Source: Lachnospiraceae bacterium (GTDB lineage: Bacteria > Bacillota_A > Clostridia > Lachnospirales > Lachnospiraceae). From it: DNA of 8,549 nt. Shown here in pieces: positions 1,087-8,549 of the stretch. The notes beneath the pieces were generated by a model, which saw only the letters and a list, made by a program, of their open reading frames with translations, was not told the origin of the DNA and ran no database searches. The position numbers and the translations under genes were made by a program. Position 1 is the first letter of the stretch, and the number at the start of each line of letters is the position of its first letter. The DNA is taken from positions 1-8,549 of the forward strand of contig JAFXWR010000065.1 in NCBI GenBank assembly GCA_017542725.1. The letters are read 5' to 3'.

Positions 1087-1124
1087 GTACTAATTTTGTC
1101 AGAAAAAAGAGGTAAAAAAAAATA

Positions 1125-1153
1125 TTGCATTTCTTGCAAAAATATAGTATTAT
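1125..1153 (+). promoter_or_regulatory. Predicted sigma-A promoter of the T-box/trpXYZ transcript
   Basis: A -35 TTGCAT (1125-1130) and a -10 TATTAT (1148-1153) are separated by 17 bp and lie just upstream of the T-box stem I, which starts near 1169. Transcription would begin around 1160. The surrounding AT-richness makes chance matches common, but spacing and position fit the riboswitch well. Confidence 0.6.
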
Positions 1154-1159
1154 ATCTAC

Positions 1160-1385
1160 AATTAAATAGGCCGATGATAAAAGATGAAGTAACTTATGTT
1201 GATGCTTTTGAGAGAGCCGTGCTGAAGCTGGGAAACGGTAAGAGGATAGTAAGTGAATGGGCTTTTGGAGGTCAAACTACTTTGAGAGACCGTTGATGGA
1301 CGGTAATATGAGTGGCACCGCGGATAAATATTATTTATTTTAATTATTCGTCTCATATAGCAAATGCTGTATGAGATTTTTATTT
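1160..1385 (+). promoter_or_regulatory. T-box riboswitch, tryptophan-specific (UGG specifier)
   Basis: This leader senses uncharged tRNA and controls trpXYZ by antitermination. Stem I can be folded by eye: basal helix GGCC 1169-1172 with GGTC 1270-1273; K-turn-like GATGA 1173-1177; helix AAAAG 1179-1183 with CTTTT 1262-1266; a specifier loop with AGTA 1188-1191 on the 5' side and GAA-TGG-G 1255-1261 on the 3' side; helix ACTTA 1192-1196 with TAAGT 1250-1254; and the distal AGAGAG element at 1210-1215. The specifier codon is TGG at 1258-1260 (Trp). A small stem III is ACCGT 1289-1293 with ACGGT 1300-1304. The T-box core GAGTGGCACCGCGG spans 1310-1323. The antiterminator pairs 1306-1312 with 1352-1358, and the bulge TGGC (1313-1316) is complementary to a tRNA ending GCCA, as in bacterial tRNA-Trp (discriminator G73). 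The alternative fold is the terminator at 1351-1385. Confidence 0.93.
1351..1385 (+). terminator. T-box-controlled intrinsic terminator (attenuator)
   Basis: An 11-bp stem, TCTCATATAGC (1351-1361) with GCTGTATGAGA (1366-1376), has a four-base AAAT loop and one G-U pair. It is followed by a T-rich run from 1377. Its 5' arm shares bases 1352-1358 with the antiterminator, so the two structures are mutually exclusive, as expected for a T-box. Confidence 0.9.
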
Positions 1386-1401
1386 TATCATATAGCAGTA
1401 T

Positions 1402-1426
1402 GTAGGGGGCGAGTTTCACGAGCCCG
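1402..1426 (+). repeat. Palindromic repeat copy A, between attenuator and trpX ribosome site
   Basis: The copy begins GTAGGGGGCGA and ends GAGCCCG. It folds as GGGC/GCCC closing pairs, a tandem GA/GA mismatch, an inner GT/AC stem and a TTC loop. It sits three bases before the trpX AGGAG at 1429-1433, so it would be part of every read-through mRNA leader. It belongs to the same family as the copies at 2517, 4398, 6303 and 8058. Confidence 0.8.
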
Positions 1427-1439
1427 AGAGGAGAAAATT

Positions 1440-2510
1440 ATGAAAAAGAATTTGGGATTATCACTACTAGTTTTACTATCTTTAGTATTTACTGCTTGTG
1501 GATCAAAAGCAGTAAGCACACAAACTACTGAAGCAGCAGCTTCTGGACAAGAAGCAGCTACTGAGAAAGCAACTACTGAGAAAGCAGCAGCTGCGAAAGT
1601 TTACAAAGTAGGTATAGGACAATTTGCAGAACACCGTTCTCTTGACAATTGTAGAAATGGTTTTATCGTAGGAATGATGTCAGAGGGATTTGTTGAAGGA
1701 GAAAACATAACTTATCTCTATGATAATGCACAGACAGATGGAAGTACAGCACAACAGATATACAATAAATATGCTACACAGAAAGTTGATTTAGCTATGG
1801 CAATTGCAACTCCTATGGCACAAGTTGCTTACGGTACATTTAACGGAACCAACACACCTGTTATATACACAGCAGTAAGTGATCCAGTTGCAGCAGAGCT
1901 TGCAAAAGCAAATGGCTCCCCAGTTGGAAATGTCACAGGAACATCAGATAAGATTCCTGCAGAGGCACAACTCAAATTGATGACAGAGATGTTCCCAAAT
2001 GCAAAAAACATAGGCATACTTTATACTACAAGTGAAGTAAATTCTTTATCTGCAATAGAAGACTATAAAAAGGCAGCTGAAAAGTATAATGTCAATATAG
2101 TAGTTCAATCTATTGATCAAGGTTCTGATATGCCTCTCGCTGTAGATGCTATCTTGCCAAAGGTTGATCTTATGACAAATCTTTTAGACAATACTGTAGT
2201 TGCAAATATGCCAGTGCTTATAGAAAAGGCAAACGAAAAAAAGATTCCTGTATTTGGTTCAGAGATAGAGCAAGTTCGTAGAGGCTGCATAGCTGCTATG
2301 GGACTTGACTATATGGAACTTGGAAAACAAACTGGTGTTATGGCTGCAAAAATTTTAAAGGGAGAGAAGAAAGCTTCTCAGATGAAATTCGAAGTAATTA
2401 AAGATGCTTCGCTCTATTTAAATACTAAAGTTATTGAAAATCTCGGTCTTGATGTTGACCCATCATTTGCTACTCGCGCGGTAGAAGTTTATAACGAGAT
2501 TATGGAGTAA
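1440..2510 (+). CDS. trpX: Tryptophan ABC transporter substrate-binding lipoprotein (TrpX type)
   Basis: This is a 356-residue extracytoplasmic binding protein of the ABC_sub_bind family (PF04392), predicted to capture tryptophan outside the cell and deliver it to TrpY/TrpZ. The ATG at 1440 is chosen because AGGAG (1429-1433) precedes it by 6 bases and the protein then opens with a lipoprotein signal: two lysines, a hydrophobic stretch, and lipobox FTAC with Cys20. The in-frame ATG at 1371 lies inside the attenuator and would add 23 implausible residues before the signal peptide. Residues 21-52 form an Ala/Thr/Glu/Lys-rich linker containing a repeated TEKA unit. The two-lobed domain starts near 54 (VYKVGIGQF) and includes ATPMAQVAYG, PVIYTAVSDPVAAELA and the late GRR-free segment EQVRRGCIAAMGLDY. 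Substrate assignment rests on the Trp-specific T-box upstream and the known TrpXYZ arrangement in Firmicutes; the protein alone would only suggest an amino-acid-like ligand. Confidence 0.85.
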   Translation: MKKNLGLSLLVLLSLVFTACGSKAVSTQTTEAAASGQEAATEKATTEKAAAAKVYKVGIGQFAEHRSLDNCRNGFIVGMMSEGFVEGENITYLYDNAQTDGSTAQQIYNKYATQKVDLAMAIATPMAQVAYGTFNGTNTPVIYTAVSDPVAAELAKANGSPVGNVTGTSDKIPAEAQLKLMTEMFPNAKNIGILYTTSEVNSLSAIEDYKKAAEKYNVNIVVQSIDQGSDMPLAVDAILPKVDLMTNLLDNTVVANMPVLIEKANEKKIPVFGSEIEQVRRGCIAAMGLDYMELGKQTGVMAAKILKGEKKASQMKFEVIKDASLYLNTKVIENLGLDVDPSFATRAVEVYNEIME

Positions 2511-2516
2511 TATAAT

Positions 2517-2541
2517 GGGGCTCGCATAGCTCGCCCATACG
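2517..2541 (-). repeat. Palindromic repeat copy B, inverted, between trpX and trpY
   Basis: Read on the minus strand it gives GTATGGGCGAGC, loop TAT, then GCGAGCCCC, the same architecture as copy A: GGGC/GCCC, tandem GA mismatch, GC/GC inner stem. On the plus strand the mismatch becomes TC/TC. It fills most of the 42-base gap after the trpX stop, and its outer end merges into the GTAGGAG that serves as the trpY ribosome site. Confidence 0.78.
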
Positions 2542-2552
2542 TAGGAGTAGTA

Positions 2553-3428
2553 ATGCAATTATTAATTGGAGTATTAGAAGAAGGATTTATATATGCCCTA
2601 GTATCTTTTGGGGCATATATAACATTTAAAATATTGGATTTTCCGGATATGACTGTGGATGGTTCATTTCCTTTTGGCATGTGTATAACAGCGGTGATGA
2701 TTATAAATAATGTAAATCCATTTATCACACTGCCAGTAAGTTTTATTGCTGGATGTGTGGCAGGAACTATCACAGGACTCATACACGTGAGACTCAAGGT
2801 GAGAGACCTTTTGTCAGGAATTATTGTGATGACATCACTTTATTCTATAAACTTAAGGTTGGCTGGAAGAGCAAATTTACCTATATTTCAAAAGCCGAGT
2901 ATTTTTAAAATGATTCCTTTTGCAAATAGGGATACTTTTTTGGGTCATCTAAAAGTTGTAATCATCTTACTTGTCATAGTTATGATATTAAAAATTTTAC
3001 TTGATTTGTATCTTGAAACTAAGAGTGGATATCTACTTAGAAGTGTAGGAGATAATGAGACACTTGTCACGACACTTGGCAAAAATAAAGAAAATGTAAA
3101 AGTGTTGGGACTTGCTCTTGCAAACGGATTTGCAGCACTTGCTGGTTCTATTTATGCACAGCATCGTGGTTTTTTTGAAATTAGTGCAGGCACAGGGACA
3201 CTTGTCATAGCAGTTGCAAATGTCATCATAGGACTTCAACTTATGAATGCGTTTAGAAGTATGAAACCTACAACGAGCGTTATCTTAGGCTCTATATTGT
3301 ATAGAGCATGTATAGGTTTTGCATTATTCCTCGGTATGCCATCAAGTGATTTGAAGATAATCACAGCTGCACTTCTACTTATAGTTATAGTTTTAAATAC
3401 AAAAAAATATAAGAAGATGGTTAAGTAG
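2553..3428 (+). CDS. trpY: Tryptophan ABC transporter permease (TrpY type)
   Basis: This 291-residue integral membrane protein of the LIV-permease-like family (BPD_transp_2) would form the translocation channel for the TrpX ligand. Hydrophobic segments are apparent at roughly 5-27, 41-53, 57-79, 86-100, 131-150, 185-205, 215-233, 241-260 and 266-284; exact count and topology are uncertain. The cytoplasmic coupling loop has the family pattern GYLLRSVGDNE...TLGKN (about 158-178) before ANGFAALAGSIYAQ. The protein ends with a short basic tail (KKYKKMVK). The start is set by AGGAG at 2543-2547, five bases before the ATG. The gene lies 42 bases after trpX and 8 before trpZ, so it is in the same transcript and under T-box control. 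Confidence 0.85.
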   Translation: MQLLIGVLEEGFIYALVSFGAYITFKILDFPDMTVDGSFPFGMCITAVMIINNVNPFITLPVSFIAGCVAGTITGLIHVRLKVRDLLSGIIVMTSLYSINLRLAGRANLPIFQKPSIFKMIPFANRDTFLGHLKVVIILLVIVMILKILLDLYLETKSGYLLRSVGDNETLVTTLGKNKENVKVLGLALANGFAALAGSIYAQHRGFFEISAGTGTLVIAVANVIIGLQLMNAFRSMKPTTSVILGSILYRACIGFALFLGMPSSDLKIITAALLLIVIVLNTKKYKKMVK

Positions 3429-3436
3429 GAGGGATT

Positions 3437-4210
3437 ATGATTGAGTTAAATAACATTTTTAAATATTATAATCCAGGCCTTGTGACAGAAAATTGTGTCT
3501 TTCATAATTTTAATCTTAAGGTTGATGACCATGAATTTGTATCTGTGATAGGTTCAAATGGTTCGGGTAAGACAACGATGCTCAATATAATTTGTGGTTC
3601 AATAGATATAGACCATGGAAACATCTTTCTTGATGGTAGAGATATAAGTAAAGAGCCAGAATATAAAAGGATGTATCGCATAGGGCGCGTGTATCAAAAT
3701 CCTGCAATGGGAACTTGCCCAAGCATGAACATAATAGAAAACATGGCGCTCGCTGAAAATAAAAACAAATCATTTGGTCTAAAAAGACTTATAGATAAAA
3801 AGAAAATAGATTTTTATCGGGATGAATTAAAGAAGCTTGGGCTCGGACTTGAAGATAAAATCTATGTACCTGTAGGAGCACTTTCTGGTGGACAGAGACA
3901 GGCGATATCACTTCTTATGACTACTATGTCTGAAATAGATTTTTTAATTCTTGATGAACACACTGCTGCTCTTGACCCAAAGACAGCTGACATAATTATG
4001 GAGCTTACAGATAAACTTGTAAAAGAGAAAAACCTAACTTCCATAATGGTAACTCACAATCTTCGTTATGCTGTGGAGTATGGCTCAAGACTTATAATGA
4101 TGCATCAAGGGGAAGCAATTATAGATAAAAAAGGTGAAGATAAAAAGAATATGAATGTTCAAGATATCTTGCAAAAGTTCACTGAGATATCAATTGAATT
4201 GGGAAATTAA
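3437..4210 (+). CDS. trpZ: Tryptophan ABC transporter ATP-binding protein (TrpZ type)
   Basis: This is a complete 257-residue ABC ATPase that would power TrpY from the cytoplasmic side. Visible motifs are Walker A GSNGSGKTT (39-47), Q-loop Gln87 in VYQNPAMG, signature LSGGQ (149-153), Walker B FLILDE (169-174), D-loop AALD (177-180) and switch His207 in VTHN. All key residues are intact. The Shine-Dalgarno AGGAGGG (3427-3433) overlaps the last bases of the trpY stop codon, implying tight translational coupling. The family resembles the ATPases of LIV-type importers; Trp specificity comes from operon context and the T-box. The operon ends immediately afterwards: the terminator stem begins at the base following the stop codon. 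Confidence 0.88.
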   Translation: MIELNNIFKYYNPGLVTENCVFHNFNLKVDDHEFVSVIGSNGSGKTTMLNIICGSIDIDHGNIFLDGRDISKEPEYKRMYRIGRVYQNPAMGTCPSMNIIENMALAENKNKSFGLKRLIDKKKIDFYRDELKKLGLGLEDKIYVPVGALSGGQRQAISLLMTTMSEIDFLILDEHTAALDPKTADIIMELTDKLVKEKNLTSIMVTHNLRYAVEYGSRLIMMHQGEAIIDKKGEDKKNMNVQDILQKFTEISIELGN

Positions 4211-4238
4211 AAAACAAGGGCTTGCCCTTGTTTTTTTT
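4209..4238. terminator. Bidirectional intrinsic terminator between trpZ and tRNA-Glu
   Basis: A 10-bp stem, AAAACAAGGG (4211-4220) with CCCTTGTTTT (4225-4234), has a CTTG loop. T8 (4231-4238) follows on the plus strand; A6 (4209-4214) provides a U6 tract for transcripts coming from the opposite side. It can therefore end both the trpXYZ transcript and the convergent tRNA-Glu transcript. Confidence 0.92.
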
Positions 4239-4239
4239 G

Positions 4240-4311
4240 TGACCGATCCGGGAATCGAACCCGGGATTCCGCCGTGAGAGGGCGACGTCTTAACCGCTTG
4301 ACCAATCGGCC
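4240..4311 (-). tRNA. tRNA-Glu, anticodon CUC
   Basis: The minus strand folds as a cloverleaf. The acceptor is GGCCGAT with ATCGGTC (one G-U pair). The D arm is GTC/GAC around AAGCGGTTAA. The anticodon stem is TCGCC/GGCGG with loop CTCTCAC. The T arm is CCGGG/CCCGG with loop TTCGATT. The anticodon is CTC (plus-strand 4276-4278), decoding GAG. The discriminator is A at 4240. The genomic 3' CCA is absent (ACAAAA follows), so it must be added after transcription. The gene is isolated, convergent with trpZ and divergent from the SGNH gene. Confidence 0.95.
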
Positions 4312-4325
4312 GTCACAACACATAT

Positions 4326-4355
4326 ATAATAACATAAATTATATGCTTTTTGCAA
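4326..4355 (-). promoter_or_regulatory. Predicted promoter of tRNA-Glu
   Basis: On the minus strand a -35 TTGCAA (plus-strand 4350-4355) and a -10 TATTAT (plus-strand 4326-4331) are spaced by 18 bp. Initiation would be near 4318, a few bases before the mature tRNA 5' end at 4311. The motif match is moderate, but no gene lies upstream on this strand, so a promoter is required here. Confidence 0.5.
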
Positions 4356-4366
4356 GACTGTTTTTA

Positions 4367-4395
4367 TTGACTATAAAAAATCAATAATTTATAAT
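4367..4395 (+). promoter_or_regulatory. Near-consensus sigma-A promoter of the SGNH-like gene
   Basis: TTGACT (4367-4372) and TATAAT (4390-4395) have an ideal 17-bp spacer. Transcription should start about 4402, which falls inside palindromic repeat copy C, so the mRNA would begin with that hairpin. It is divergent from the tRNA-Glu promoter, 12 bp away. Confidence 0.8.
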
Positions 4396-4397
4396 AT

Positions 4398-4421
4398 GTA
4401 GGGGCGGATATTATCCGCCTG
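4398..4421 (+). repeat. Palindromic repeat copy C, at the predicted transcript start of the SGNH gene
   Basis: The copy shares the GTAGGGGCG opening but has fully complementary arms: GGCGGAT (4403-4409) and ATCCGCC (4413-4419) around an ATT loop, with no GA mismatch. It is therefore a variant or a related subfamily. It ends 4 bases before the AGGA (4425-4428) used for translation of the gene at 4437. Confidence 0.72.
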
Positions 4422-4436
4422 TACAGGATACTTATT

Positions 4437-5456
4437 ATGAATAAAAAGTGCTTGAAAAATGCAATATTTACACTGTTTGCTTTGGTGCTGATATTAGGTT
4501 TGAGCTTTGGCATAAAGGCAGATGCAAGGGTGACAGACAATGAGCAGAGTGCAATAAATGCACTTAGTGGTAACTTGGTTTGTTCTATAAATGATGCATA
4601 TCAAGAAAGATATTTTAAAGCAAATATAATTAAAAACTTAAATAGAAATGTAGGAGTGATTTCAATCGGCTCAAGTCATCTTATGACTCTTTCAAGTGAT
4701 GCAGTAAAAGGTGACTATATAAATTTAGCTGTCGGCGGTGCAAATCTTCAGGATAGATTAAATATTTTGGGATTACTTGATTTATATAATATTCAATATA
4801 ACAAAGTTGTCTATGAGATAGATATAGCAAGTTTTTTGCCAACTGCAAGAAAAATTGAAAAATATAATTCGGATTTTAAAAAATATGGAGATTATTTTTA
4901 CAATAAATTTGTTCTGGGCATCAATTCTCAGCCTGTTGCATTAGATTTCAATGATTATTATATAAATGAATTTGCAGATAATGCTGTTTTAAATTTGACA
5001 AGAGTGTATGACAAGAATAATTTGCCACACAAATTAATTTATTATAAGCCAGATGCATCACAAGGATATCCAAGAGCTGTCTACGAAGAAGAGAAAGAAA
5101 ATAAAAAAGAGCAGACTGGGATTATCATCAATAATGACAAGATATTTAGAGATACGGATATTAATAAGGACTCTATAAAAGTTGTTGATACAATTATGAA
5201 ATATTTTCATGATAAGGGGATAGAGATAGAGATAGTTGTAATTCCAAGACCGCCATCTGTGTACGATGGTTCTGAGATGCTTACATCAAAGTATATTGCA
5301 TCAATCAATGAATTAATATATAAGTATTATGTTAATTATAATGTGAAAGTATGTGGCTCGTTTAACCCACATGATTTAGATGTGGCTGAGGACGATTATT
5401 ATGATGCGCTGCATTTAAAGCCTGAAAGTATAACTAGATTATATACTATAGATTGA
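4437..5456 (+). CDS. Exported SGNH-hydrolase-like protein of unknown substrate
   Basis: This 339-residue protein has an N-terminal signal peptide: basic start, hydrophobic core about 8-25, and probable cleavage after ADA (28-30). The mature part has features of the SGNH fold: block-I-like IGSSH with candidate nucleophile Ser79 or Ser80, a following VGGAN segment (99-103) as a block-II-like glycine, and near the C-terminus DALH with Asp323 and His326 as the candidate catalytic pair. A charged, low-complexity EEEKENKKEQ stretch occurs at 217-226. The family includes esterases and polysaccharide or teichoic-acid acyl-transfer proteins; a cell-envelope carbohydrate acyl substrate is only a guess. 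The start has AGGA at 4425-4428, eight bases upstream, and the signal peptide supports it. It looks monocistronic, with its own promoter. It ends only 13 residues after the histidine, slightly short but not evidently broken. Confidence 0.7.
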   Translation: MNKKCLKNAIFTLFALVLILGLSFGIKADARVTDNEQSAINALSGNLVCSINDAYQERYFKANIIKNLNRNVGVISIGSSHLMTLSSDAVKGDYINLAVGGANLQDRLNILGLLDLYNIQYNKVVYEIDIASFLPTARKIEKYNSDFKKYGDYFYNKFVLGINSQPVALDFNDYYINEFADNAVLNLTRVYDKNNLPHKLIYYKPDASQGYPRAVYEEEKENKKEQTGIIINNDKIFRDTDINKDSIKVVDTIMKYFHDKGIEIEIVVIPRPPSVYDGSEMLTSKYIASINELIYKYYVNYNVKVCGSFNPHDLDVAEDDYYDALHLKPESITRLYTID

Positions 5457-5511
5457 CAATAGACTGATTTTTTTAGATATAATTGACTAACAAATTGAAA
5501 TTTACTATAAT
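5453..5511 (+). promoter_or_regulatory. Overlapping tandem promoters of leuS
   Basis: The downstream promoter is near-perfect: TTGACT (5483-5488), 17-bp spacer, TATAAT (5506-5511), start about 5518. An upstream candidate, TTGACA (5453-5458) and TATAAT (5478-5483), has a long 19-bp spacer and a -35 box overlapping the stop codon of the preceding gene. Its -10 shares base 5483 with the -35 of the second promoter, so the two could not be occupied together. Confidence 0.75.
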
Positions 5512-5600
5512 ATAAAGTGCGATTTAATGCATATATAAAGGGATATTTGGTAAAGATTTGAAACCACGTGTCCCAAAATTTTGGTGTGTAAAGGATTCGT

Positions 5601-8048
5601 ATGGCTTATAATTTTAAAGAAATTGAAAAGAAATGGGATAAGTATTGGGAAGAAAATCCAGTAAATCCGAAAGATGAGAAGAAGGAAAAATATTATTGTC
5701 TTGATATGTTTCCATATCCATCAGGTGCAGGGCTTCATGTAGGTCACTGGAGAGGATATGTGATATCAGATGCATGGGCAAGGTATCAACTTCTAAAAGG
5801 CAAGTATGTCATCCATCCTATGGGCTTTGATGCTTTTGGACTTCCCGCTGAGAACTATGCACTTAAGATGCATGTGCATCCTTCAATTTCTACTGATGAA
5901 AATATAAAAAATTTCGAGAGACAGTTAAAACAAATTTCTGCTATCTATGATTGGGATATGGAATTAAAAACCACCGACCCAAATTATTATAAATGGACTC
6001 AGTGGATATTTGTTAAACTTTTTGAAAATGGTCTCGCATATGAAAAAGAATTTCCTATAAACTGGTGTCCAAGCTGTAAGACAGGACTTTCAAATGAAGA
6101 TGTGGTTGATGGTTGTTGTGAGAGATGCGGAACTCCTGTAACTAAAAAGAATCTTCGCCAGTGGATGCTCAAGATTACAAATTATGCTGAGAGACTTTTA
6201 AATGATTTAGATAAATTAGATTGGCCTGAAAAAGTTAAGAAGATGCAGACGGAGTGGATTGGAAAATCTTACGGAGCTGAAGTAGATTTCGAAATTGCAG
6301 AAGTAGGGGCGAGCACTGCGAGCCCGGATAATAAAATTACAGTATATACCACTAGACCAGATACATTATATGGTGCAACATTTATGGTTCTCGCGCCAGA
6401 GCACGACATGTCACTCAAACTTGCAACTCCTGATAAGAAAGTCGAAGTAGAAGAATACATCAAAACTGCAAGCATGAAGACAAATGTAGATAGAATGTCA
6501 GTGTCCGATAAAGATAAGACTGGTGTGTTTACAGGATCTTATGCTATTAATCCATTAAATAAAAAACAGATTCCAATCTGGATTTCAGACTATGTATTAA
6601 ATGATTATGGTACTGGAGCCATCATGTGTGTTCCTGCGCATGACGAGAGAGACTTTGCATTTGCTAAAAAGTTTGGACTTGAAATAGTTCCAGTTATAGC
6701 TCCAAAAGATGATGTGCATAAATTTGACAATGGAATGGATGAGGCATTTATATCAACTGATGGTGTAGTAATCAATTCTGATGATTGGAATGGAAGAATT
6801 TCAAGTGAGTTAAAGAAAAATGCACCTGATGAGTTAGAGAAAAAAGGAATTGGAAAGAAAACAGTAAATTATAAAATTCGTGACTGGGTTTTCTCAAGAC
6901 AGAGATATTGGGGAGAGCCTATACCTATAGTTCATTGTCCGCATTGTGGTAATGTGGCGGTGCCAGTTGAAGAACTTCCACTTAGGCTTCCAGATGTAAA
7001 GTCATATGAGCCATCTGGAACTGGTGAGTCTCCGCTTGTAAATATCACTGACTGGGTAAACTGCAAATGTCCAAAGTGCGGTGCCGATGCTAAGAGAGAG
7101 ACAAACACTATGCCACAATGGGCAGGGTCATCTTGGTATTTCTTAAGATATATAGATGTTAATAACGACAAGGCTCTAGTTGATAGAGCGAAGGCGGATA
7201 AGTTTTTACCTGTAGATATGTATATAGGTGGAGTTGAACATGCTGTTCTTCATTTGCTCTATTCGAGATTTTGGACTAAGTTCCTCTATGATATTGGAGC
7301 AATAGGATTTGATGAGCCATTTCATAAACTTTTTAATCAGGGAATGATTTTAGGACCAAAGGGCATCAAGATGAGTAAGTCGCTTGGAAATGTCATAAAT
7401 CCAGATGAGATGGTTGACAATTATGGTTGCGATACTCTTCGTATGTATGAACTCTTCATAGGGCCACCTGATTTGGATGCGGCTTGGGATGATAGGGGAA
7501 TAGAAGGTGTATATAAATTTATAAATCGTCTATATACTTTGGTTGAGAAAAATGCGAACTCAAATGGTGATGCGACTAAGGAAAGTTTATTTATAAGACA
7601 TAATCTCATAAAAGCTATCACTGAAAGACTTGAAAAGTTTTCACTCAACACAGTAATATCTGGATTTATGGAATATACAAATTCACTTATAGACCTTGAT
7701 AGAAAACAAGGTTATATTGATAAAGATACGCTTAAGACTATAGCAGTGTTGATGGCACCATTTGCACCACATGTTGCAGAGGAGTTTTATCATATGCTTG
7801 GTGAGAGTGGTACTGTGTTTAATGCTAGTTGGCCAAAGTTTGATGAAAATTTGGCGAAGTCAGATACTATAAAACTCCCTATACAGATAAATGGAAAGAC
7901 AAGAGGCTTTGTAGAGGTTGCAGCAGAGACAAGTGAGAAAGAGGTGCTCGCAGCGGCGAAGGAAGTTGTAAAAGAAAAACTTACGGGCGACATAATTAAA
8001 GAAATATATGTGAAAGGAAAAATAATCAACTTTGTAATAAAGATGTAG
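5601..8048 (+). CDS. leuS: Leucyl-tRNA synthetase, class Ia
   Basis: This complete 815-residue enzyme charges tRNA-Leu with leucine and hydrolyses mischarged products. Motifs in order: HIGH-type HVGH (46-49); zinc-type cysteines Cys156/159 and Cys172/173/176; CP1 editing domain with TTRPDT (250-255), GTGA (337-340) and HDERD (347-351, Asp348 the editing residue); DWVFSRQRYWGEPIP (428-442); a second cysteine cluster at Cys446/449 and Cys488/490/493; WAGSSWY (507-513); KMSKS (590-594); then the anticodon-binding and C-terminal domains. Length is slightly above the roughly 804 usual in Bacillus. Part of the excess is residues 235-242 (VGASTASP), encoded by an inserted palindromic repeat. The start has AAGGA at 5591-5595. 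The stop TAG at 8046-8048 lies in a repeat fragment. No T-box is seen in the 80-base leader, although leuS genes of Firmicutes often have one. Confidence 0.98.
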   Translation: MAYNFKEIEKKWDKYWEENPVNPKDEKKEKYYCLDMFPYPSGAGLHVGHWRGYVISDAWARYQLLKGKYVIHPMGFDAFGLPAENYALKMHVHPSISTDENIKNFERQLKQISAIYDWDMELKTTDPNYYKWTQWIFVKLFENGLAYEKEFPINWCPSCKTGLSNEDVVDGCCERCGTPVTKKNLRQWMLKITNYAERLLNDLDKLDWPEKVKKMQTEWIGKSYGAEVDFEIAEVGASTASPDNKITVYTTRPDTLYGATFMVLAPEHDMSLKLATPDKKVEVEEYIKTASMKTNVDRMSVSDKDKTGVFTGSYAINPLNKKQIPIWISDYVLNDYGTGAIMCVPAHDERDFAFAKKFGLEIVPVIAPKDDVHKFDNGMDEAFISTDGVVINSDDWNGRISSELKKNAPDELEKKGIGKKTVNYKIRDWVFSRQRYWGEPIPIVHCPHCGNVAVPVEELPLRLPDVKSYEPSGTGESPLVNITDWVNCKCPKCGADAKRETNTMPQWAGSSWYFLRYIDVNNDKALVDRAKADKFLPVDMYIGGVEHAVLHLLYSRFWTKFLYDIGAIGFDEPFHKLFNQGMILGPKGIKMSKSLGNVINPDEMVDNYGCDTLRMYELFIGPPDLDAAWDDRGIEGVYKFINRLYTLVEKNANSNGDATKESLFIRHNLIKAITERLEKFSLNTVISGFMEYTNSLIDLDRKQGYIDKDTLKTIAVLMAPFAPHVAEEFYHMLGESGTVFNASWPKFDENLAKSDTIKLPIQINGKTRGFVEVAAETSEKEVLAAAKEVVKEKLTGDIIKEIYVKGKIINFVIKM
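6303..6326 (+). repeat. Palindromic repeat copy D, in frame inside leuS
   Basis: The copy begins GTAGGGGCGAGC, has loop ACT, and ends GCGAGCCCG. Pairing is GGGC/GCCC (6307-6310 with 6322-6325), tandem GA mismatch, GC/GC, three-base loop, the same as copies A and B. At 24 bases it keeps the frame and encodes VGASTASP (residues 235-242 of LeuRS) between the AEVDFEI strand and the TVYTTRPDT motif. Confidence 0.85.
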
Positions 8049-8081
8049 GGCGCCAATGTAGGGGCGAACTTTAGGAGCCCG
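8045..8081 (+). repeat. Palindromic repeat copy E with an adjacent fragment, after leuS
   Basis: A fragment GTAGGGCGCC (8045-8054) is followed three bases later by a fuller copy (8058-8081) beginning GTAGGGGCGA and ending GAGCCCG. The copy keeps the GGGC/GCCC pairs and GA/GA mismatch, but the inner stem is degraded (ACTTTAG). The leuS stop codon (8046-8048) is inside the fragment. The whole 43-base gap before the next gene is mostly repeat. Confidence 0.75.
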
Positions 8082-8091
8082 AAAAGATAAT

Positions 8092-8549
8092 ATGGAATAT
8101 AATAGATATAGAACAAATGAATATGGTAGAGATTACGAGGGCTACGGCAAGAGCAGAAATTTGAGTCGTTCGCGCGACGCACTCAATCGCTACAAACTTA
8201 GTAGAAGAAGAAAGTCCAACAACATTTTTAAATTTGTAGGACTCACTCTTGCTATCATAGTGGTGTTGGTGCTTTCAATATTTGGAGCATACAAGTTTAT
8301 ACAATATCGAAATGATAAAAAAGCACTTGAGGGCTTCACTAATGTGCAAATGAAACAGGATATCTATTTGGACTTTTCTATAATAGGTATGAAGAAGCCA
8401 TTTAGCATACAGGGTCTTACAAAGCAAGAAGTCTATGATAAGGTTTTGGGTTCTTATGATTTTGATATAAAGATATCAAATAGCAATCCAGAGATAGATT
8501 TGTTTGATATGCCTAAGTATGGAGCGAAGGTGGAAGATACAGATTATAG
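8092..8549 (+). CDS. Membrane-anchored protein, 3' truncated by the window, possibly a cell-wall enzyme
   Basis: The frame is open from the ATG at 8092 to the last base; 152 codons are visible, and the terminal TAG is out of frame. Residues 1-45 are a polar, Tyr/Arg-rich cytoplasmic region ending in a basic RRRK cluster. Residues about 47-67 form one transmembrane helix (FVGLTLAIIVVLVLSIFGAY). The remainder is extracytoplasmic, with IYLDFSIIG, IQGLTKQEVYDKVLGSY and DIKISN. That short pattern resembles the N-terminal region of Gram-positive VanW- or L,D-transpeptidase-type proteins with a peptidoglycan-binding domain, but the evidence is weak and no catalytic part is in view. The ribosome site is poor: GAAAAG is close by, while AGGAG (8073-8077) in repeat copy E is 14 bases away. 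Co-transcription with leuS is likely, as no terminator is seen. Confidence 0.7.
   Translation, partial: MEYNRYRTNEYGRDYEGYGKSRNLSRSRDALNRYKLSRRRKSNNIFKFVGLTLAIIVVLVLSIFGAYKFIQYRNDKKALEGFTNVQMKQDIYLDFSIIGMKKPFSIQGLTKQEVYDKVLGSYDFDIKISNSNPEIDLFDMPKYGAKVEDTDY

Follow-up and report, generated by a model that had tools for sequence, protein, structure and literature searches.

A GTAG-tagged REP copy read in frame within leuS of a Lachnospiraceae bacterium, most likely spread by a RAYT-type transposase and tolerated as a loop in LeuRS

The window, by which we mean the whole 8,549-nucleotide stretch of Lachnospiraceae DNA analyzed here, carries leuS, whose leucyl-tRNA synthetase (LeuRS) product matches the Pfam leucyl editing domain at residues 218-409 as well as the synthetase domains and retains intact HVGH (46), TTRPDT (250) and KMSKS (590) motifs. 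Within this gene lies the 24-mer GTAGGGGCGAGCACTGCGAGCCCG, the first base of which is the start of codon 235; the original prediction that a repeat is read here in frame as VGASTASP was confirmed (Table 1). The sequence folds as an imperfect hairpin (-10.3 kcal/mol), the stem of which includes an internal mismatch step, and leaves a GTAG tetranucleotide at its 5' end unpaired, that is, a short palindrome of the 20-40 bp class behind a GTAG tag, and other stem variants of the family retain pairing. Seven residues separate VGASTASP from the editing motif TTRPDT, and the insert occupies a length-variable loop just before that motif, in agreement with its predicted placement at the entry to the editing domain. 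The AlphaFold model of LeuRS is weak (mean pLDDT 67, pTM 0.49) and was for that reason used solely for the statement that the insert is coil: residues 236-242 are modeled as coil, with pLDDT below 50, between strands at 221-233 and 245-250. The peptide is likely a floppy loop added without breaking leuS, and we infer that the protein bearing it is made and active.

Table 1. leuS and the members of the repeat family in the window
Feature	Position	Strand	Basis
leuS, leucyl-tRNA synthetase, 815 aa, host gene	5601..8048	+	ORF, Pfam domains, motifs
REP copy in leuS	6303..6326	+	reads in frame as LeuRS residues 235-242, VGASTASP
42-bp block (REP half-unit and full REP), absent from L001	8046..8087	+	window versus L001 alignment
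REP copy GTAGGGGCGAACTTTAGGAGCCC, 3' of leuS	8058..8080	+	repeat comparison, scan
REP copy GTAGGGGGCGAGTTTCACGAGCCC, 5' of start codon of gene at about 1440	1402..1425	+	repeat comparison, scan
Intergenic REP copy, GGATATTATCC stem variant	4398..4419	+	repeat comparison, scan
Close variant GTATGGGCGAGCTATGCGAGCCC, opposite orientation, between genes	2518..2540	-	inverted pair I1, scan

The window was aligned to the L001 locus. Positions 1-1112 of the window have no match there and positions 1113-8549 align at 86%, so gene order breaks at this point; the place in L001 that matches the copy at 1402 holds another variant. The window also contains a T-box leader at 1165-1358 (76.2 bits, below the Rfam gathering score of 93; E 5.9e-17), upstream of an ABC transporter operon with ORFs from 1371, 2553 and 3437, and a tRNA-Glu (CTC) on the minus strand at 4239-4311.

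Family copy number was counted in relatives standing in for the species of the window, such as G001, the genome of L001 (49 contigs, 1,643,626 bases, 32.8% G+C) and the nearest relative fetched, with a LeuRS 97% identical to that of the window. The loose pattern GTAGGGGCG-N5-14-GCCC occurs 134 times in G001 and its reversed control not once. Six of the 13 genomes compared carry the repeat (134 in G001, then 37, 16, 55, 22 and, in G008, 383 copies, with no reversed match in any); the other seven have none, three of them showing 1-3 reversed matches. Of 145 relatives of G001, 9 have a stricter variant of the pattern. G001 itself contains several stem sequences whose arms match, and those that were folded form hairpins. 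The leuS copy had been called a faithful member of its family, and this holds against the genome-wide family of G001, to which we limit it because the direct copies within the window are only 67-79% alike.

By rough gene calls, 115 of 160 copies in G001 lie outside called genes, 16 over a gene edge and 29 inside, a mostly extragenic distribution that would be expected if most in-gene insertions were purged. Between co-directional genes 89 of 111 copies are sense-oriented, so the orientation of copies in genes needs no protein-level cause. Among those 89, 31 stop 5-20 bases short of the following called start codon and sit directly 5' of the ribosome-binding site. The element, at 23-26 bp, is spread through a clade of host-associated Lachnospiraceae, as judged from its copies in these genomes. 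The assignment that suits it best is that of a GTAG-tagged REP (repetitive extragenic palindrome), because of its 5' GTAG, its imperfect hairpin, its many copies in relatives and the presence, in G004, of a predicted RAYT-type gene between inverted copies.

PF01797 (Y1 transposase, the RAYT domain) was matched in seven of eight genomes searched, including all six with repeats; G007 has two PF01797 fragments and no repeats, and G006, also searched, has neither a match nor repeats. Stop codons are present within the G002 and G008 matches, and that in G003 rises above the cut-off only with its neighbors in frame. The clearest unit is in G004 (L111), where REPs at 1376 (-) and 2314 (+) flank a transposase ORF at 1465-2259, placing a RAYT-type gene between two inverted family repeats. 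In G001 and G003 the TAG of the adjoining REP is the stop codon of the transposase gene, and the two repeats adjoining that gene do not make up a clear inverted pair. The G008 match has REPs to either side, and the G002 and G005 loci fetched around their matches contain no GTAGGG match. From this association we infer that a RAYT-type transposase moved the REPs. Most likely, a Y1 HUH transposase of the RAYT/TnpA_REP type acts on single-stranded hairpins and spreads the family, and single-stranded GTAGGGGCGAGCACTGCGAGCCC would be a candidate substrate for the G004 (L111) and G001 (L114) transposases. The boundary of leuS itself provides a filled/empty site. Between the window and L001 (86% identical DNA) the 42-bp block differs by presence and absence with its flanks unchanged, and the leuS stop codon is TAG in the window, formed by the first bases of the block, and TAA in L001. 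By sequence comparison, this site points to recent mobility.

The LeuRS loop was compared across 46 aligned rows, eight of which have a REP-like loop: six read VGAS, P0006 only VGAN, and P0016 CRGEHCEP, which, as a protein sequence, fits the other open sense frame of the repeat. The insert is found in L001, where the copy has diverged, in L002 and in P0001-P0003; L003-L005 and many others lack it. The original prediction had asked whether relatives lacking the repeat have these same residues; the aligned rows without it do not. Loops without the repeat span 6-12 residues, so the gain is not a clean eight residues, as had been proposed, against every relative: it is 7 net against L005 and, as a gap, against Thermus thermophilus LeuRS, whereas loops of the KCKDKT kind give 9. 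The LeuRS tree (46 rows, loop cut out) requires no fewer than four gains or losses, and the loop is empty in the very close relatives P0008, P0004, P0005 and G016, the last 92% identical to the window. The loop of L002 (G002) holds two full copies plus several half-units and is 48 residues longer than that of P0008. P0007, with this array, and P0008, with none, show 3 differences outside the loop region, and the residues adjacent to the array differ too (I232V, A233E, D234N, K286I); loop-flanking residues likewise change between P0001 and P0004. These changed flanks mean that a single clean insertion is not enough as an explanation. The prediction of a mobile or once-mobile element tolerated in a protein is supported by the LeuRS comparisons and the 42-bp site, with the refinement that related loops display several gains or losses, arrays and altered flanks, more than a simple 24-bp insertion would leave.

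Short-tract recombination or slippage between related alleles could have brought or removed the REP, with transposition needed only for the first copy. The P0007 and P0008 pair, so alike elsewhere and so different in and beside the array, is what such exchange would leave, and half-units in tandem at 18-21 bp, seen in the G002 leuS and elsewhere, resemble local duplication. However, the flanks of the 42-bp block by the leuS stop are unaltered in L001, as insertion predicts, and we consider recombination or slippage possible but on the whole unlikely.

The proposed search for further copies inside ORFs, with their frames, was made in G001, which has 201 strict copies in total; 42 ORFs with a length of 180 aa or more contain a strict copy. 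Thirty of the 42 were scanned with Pfam, and 25 were kept because homology, by Pfam or by alignment to G005, lay on both sides of the copy (in Q09 and Q26 some copies are N-terminal to the Pfam match). The 17 dropped ORFs comprised matches without a hairpin or native-looking by our reading (Q03, Q15, Q22, Q32, Q34, Q36, Q40), those for which homology did not cover both sides (Q01, Q04, Q10, Q11, Q17, Q18, Q25) and giant ORFs outside the Pfam scan (Q19, Q31, Q41). Q10 (G001 C8:21817-21931) is a 995-aa ORF crossing a REP cluster at which the G005 relative has stop codons, and is possibly two genes fused via read-through of REPs. The hairpin filter left 41 copies in 23 homology-supported ORFs, including two in Q12 that are half-units just passing the energy filter (-5.4): 25 are sense and read in the VGA frame (17 ORFs), 6 are sense in the RGE frame (5 ORFs) and 10 are antisense (6 ORFs), some ORFs having more than one kind. 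As the copies are not independent, P values for this frame census are only indicative. A simple gene caller applied to G001 (1084 genes, 82% coding) places 29 of 160 copies inside genes, as 23 sense VGA, 1 sense RGE and 5 antisense; it omits known genes, and the census was therefore not based on it. All 14 pairs of adjacent sense units in kept ORFs have a spacing of 0 or 1 modulo 3, the missing phase being the one that would place TAG in frame. With 3 antisense pairs the count is 17 of 17; for pairs outside ORFs it is 22 of 29 (Fisher p 0.036, with 6 pairs in unkept ORFs excluded).

The hosts identified by Pfam include Maf, queuosine synthase (QueA), rRNA adenine dimethylase (KsgA), RecF/RecN/SMC-type, carbohydrate kinase, HI0933-type and tRNA_Me_trans (MnmA) proteins, and a further host ORF, 85% identical to a G005 gene, we take to be MnmG. 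Judged by homology, LeuRS is one of many hosts, and the same kind of repeat lies in loops of many core enzymes of close relatives. MnmA was matched in all 14 genomes searched, and the loop sequence was obtained from 6. After ATGHYAN this loop contains REP sequence in different combinations in G001, G002 (read in the RGE frame), G016, G017 and G018; it is empty in G004 and, by alignment, in G005. The MnmG loop holds sense copies in G001 and an opposite-orientation variant, GTACGGGCGAGCTGTGCGAGCCC, at the same loop in G005. A second repeat family in the G005 MnmA and MnmG genes was considered and rejected: 10 of 11 guessed strings were absent from G005 and G001, one gave a single G005 hit, and the MnmG insert is this close variant of the REP family. 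In L234 (G005 MnmA) the first loop consists of half-units and an apparent REP with a longer element nested inside, and a similar peptide precedes the transposase ORF in L117.

We are thus largely confident in reading the 24 bp in leuS as a GTAG REP copy, most likely spread by a RAYT-type transposase and tolerated as a flexible loop in LeuRS. This reading draws on the family relationship in sequence and hairpin, the frame, the loop location, the restriction to a lineage, the recurrence across further genes and genomes and the one filled/empty site. In-gene copies would persist if the frame stays open and the landing site is a surface loop; the leuS copy, or an ancestral one common to L001, would occupy a turn that joins two strands at the editing-domain entry and be translated as a small flexible peptide that the enzyme tolerates. 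VGASTASP is presumably neutral, and that a loop tolerates it seems more probable than that it brings a new function. That the insert is kept for a benefit, as a longer editing-domain loop or as an RNA hairpin acting on the leuS mRNA, would suit the recurrent occupation of the loop and the discussion of published REPs as transcribed RNA elements (Di Nocera and colleagues 2013, PMC3733652), but the insert is missing from very close relatives (P0008, P0004, P0005, G016), copies occur in many unrelated proteins and the L001 copy has diverged, which makes a benefit quite improbable. Repeats can mislead assembly and the titled repeat-carrying records are all metagenome assemblies; however, in-frame REP loops recur in the separate records L001, L002 and P0001-P0003, of which P0002 has 15 member sequences and P0003 has 14, so an artefact that spliced the repeat into leuS is very hard to credit. 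That a run of codons resembles the repeat by chance, as a length of 24 bp might suggest, is rejected as next to impossible by the reversed controls: G001 has 8 exact and 15 one-mismatch occurrences of the first 23 bases of the leuS copy, and the reversed 23-mer is absent even when up to 6 mismatches are allowed.

Coding DNA is expected to be purged of mobile repeats. A bolder and rather doubtful proposal is that the REP/RAYT system is an ongoing generator of loop length, in which coding-compatible V-G-A-S/N-x-A/S-P units repeatedly refill loops of LeuRS, MnmA and MnmG, and alleles with and without the filling segregate among very close relatives. A clade in which core-enzyme loops are filled, empty or differently filled offers a natural experiment on protein sites that accept insertions, and one that bears on the speed of loop turnover and on whether RAYT transposases still move REPs. 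For annotation, unusual VGAS or RGEHCEP segments of these proteins should be regarded as repeat-derived.

The original prediction drew a parallel with Rickettsia palindromic elements (RPE), which are likewise translated in frame as parts of protein genes; of these, RPE-4 and RPE-6 fall among the CGTC repeats, and RPE-1 has a greater length (PMC3733652). The in-frame palindrome is common to both, but the present element is GTAG-tagged, 23-26 bp long and accompanied by a RAYT-type gene in relatives. A Rickettsia-type element with the CGTC tag of RPE-4/6 was rejected, as the leuS copy begins with GTAG, and the Rickettsia elements become a looser parallel because the element is a GTAG REP tied to a RAYT-type transposase. 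RAYT genes are flanked on either side by a GTAG repeat, the two being inverted (Nunvar and colleagues 2010, PMC2817692), those satisfying that paper's definition being, in its available text, from gammaproteobacteria only. The PF01797-type gene of G004 resembles these units, unlike G001 and G003, in which the neighboring repeats form no clear inverted pair. Cleavage by Escherichia coli TnpA_REP requires GTAG, and its substrate stem has two conserved mismatches (PMC8266576); the window copy is similar in the mismatch step of its stem, whereas several G001 stem variants have no mismatch. One transposase subclass has been placed in Clostridia, without this repeat in the available text (PMC6006769). 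Among the literature matches listed, those on in-frame palindromes included, we recognized no such case in Lachnospiraceae or the rumen, and the listed matches to the bare 9-mer look unrelated. The closest known counterparts are GTAG-tagged REPs of other bacteria, for which intragenic in-frame copies were already reported (PMC3733652): intragenic GTAG and CGTC repeats are described there, in clusters coding for 43-82 residues and with tRNA synthetases among the hosts, and recB of two Xanthomonas species is hit at about one site. The host clade here, Lachnospiraceae, differs (the available text of that paper has no word beginning "clostridi"), as does, relative to the cases in that text, an orthologous loop that is empty in some sister genomes and filled, in differing ways, in others. 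Shared with those REPs are the 5' GTAG, the short palindrome, the mostly intergenic placement with some copies in frame in ORFs, the dimers or groups, the TAG of the tag serving as a stop codon, and tRNA synthetase hosts; intragenic GTAG REPs having been published, the Lachnospiraceae finding is a new case of a known kind.
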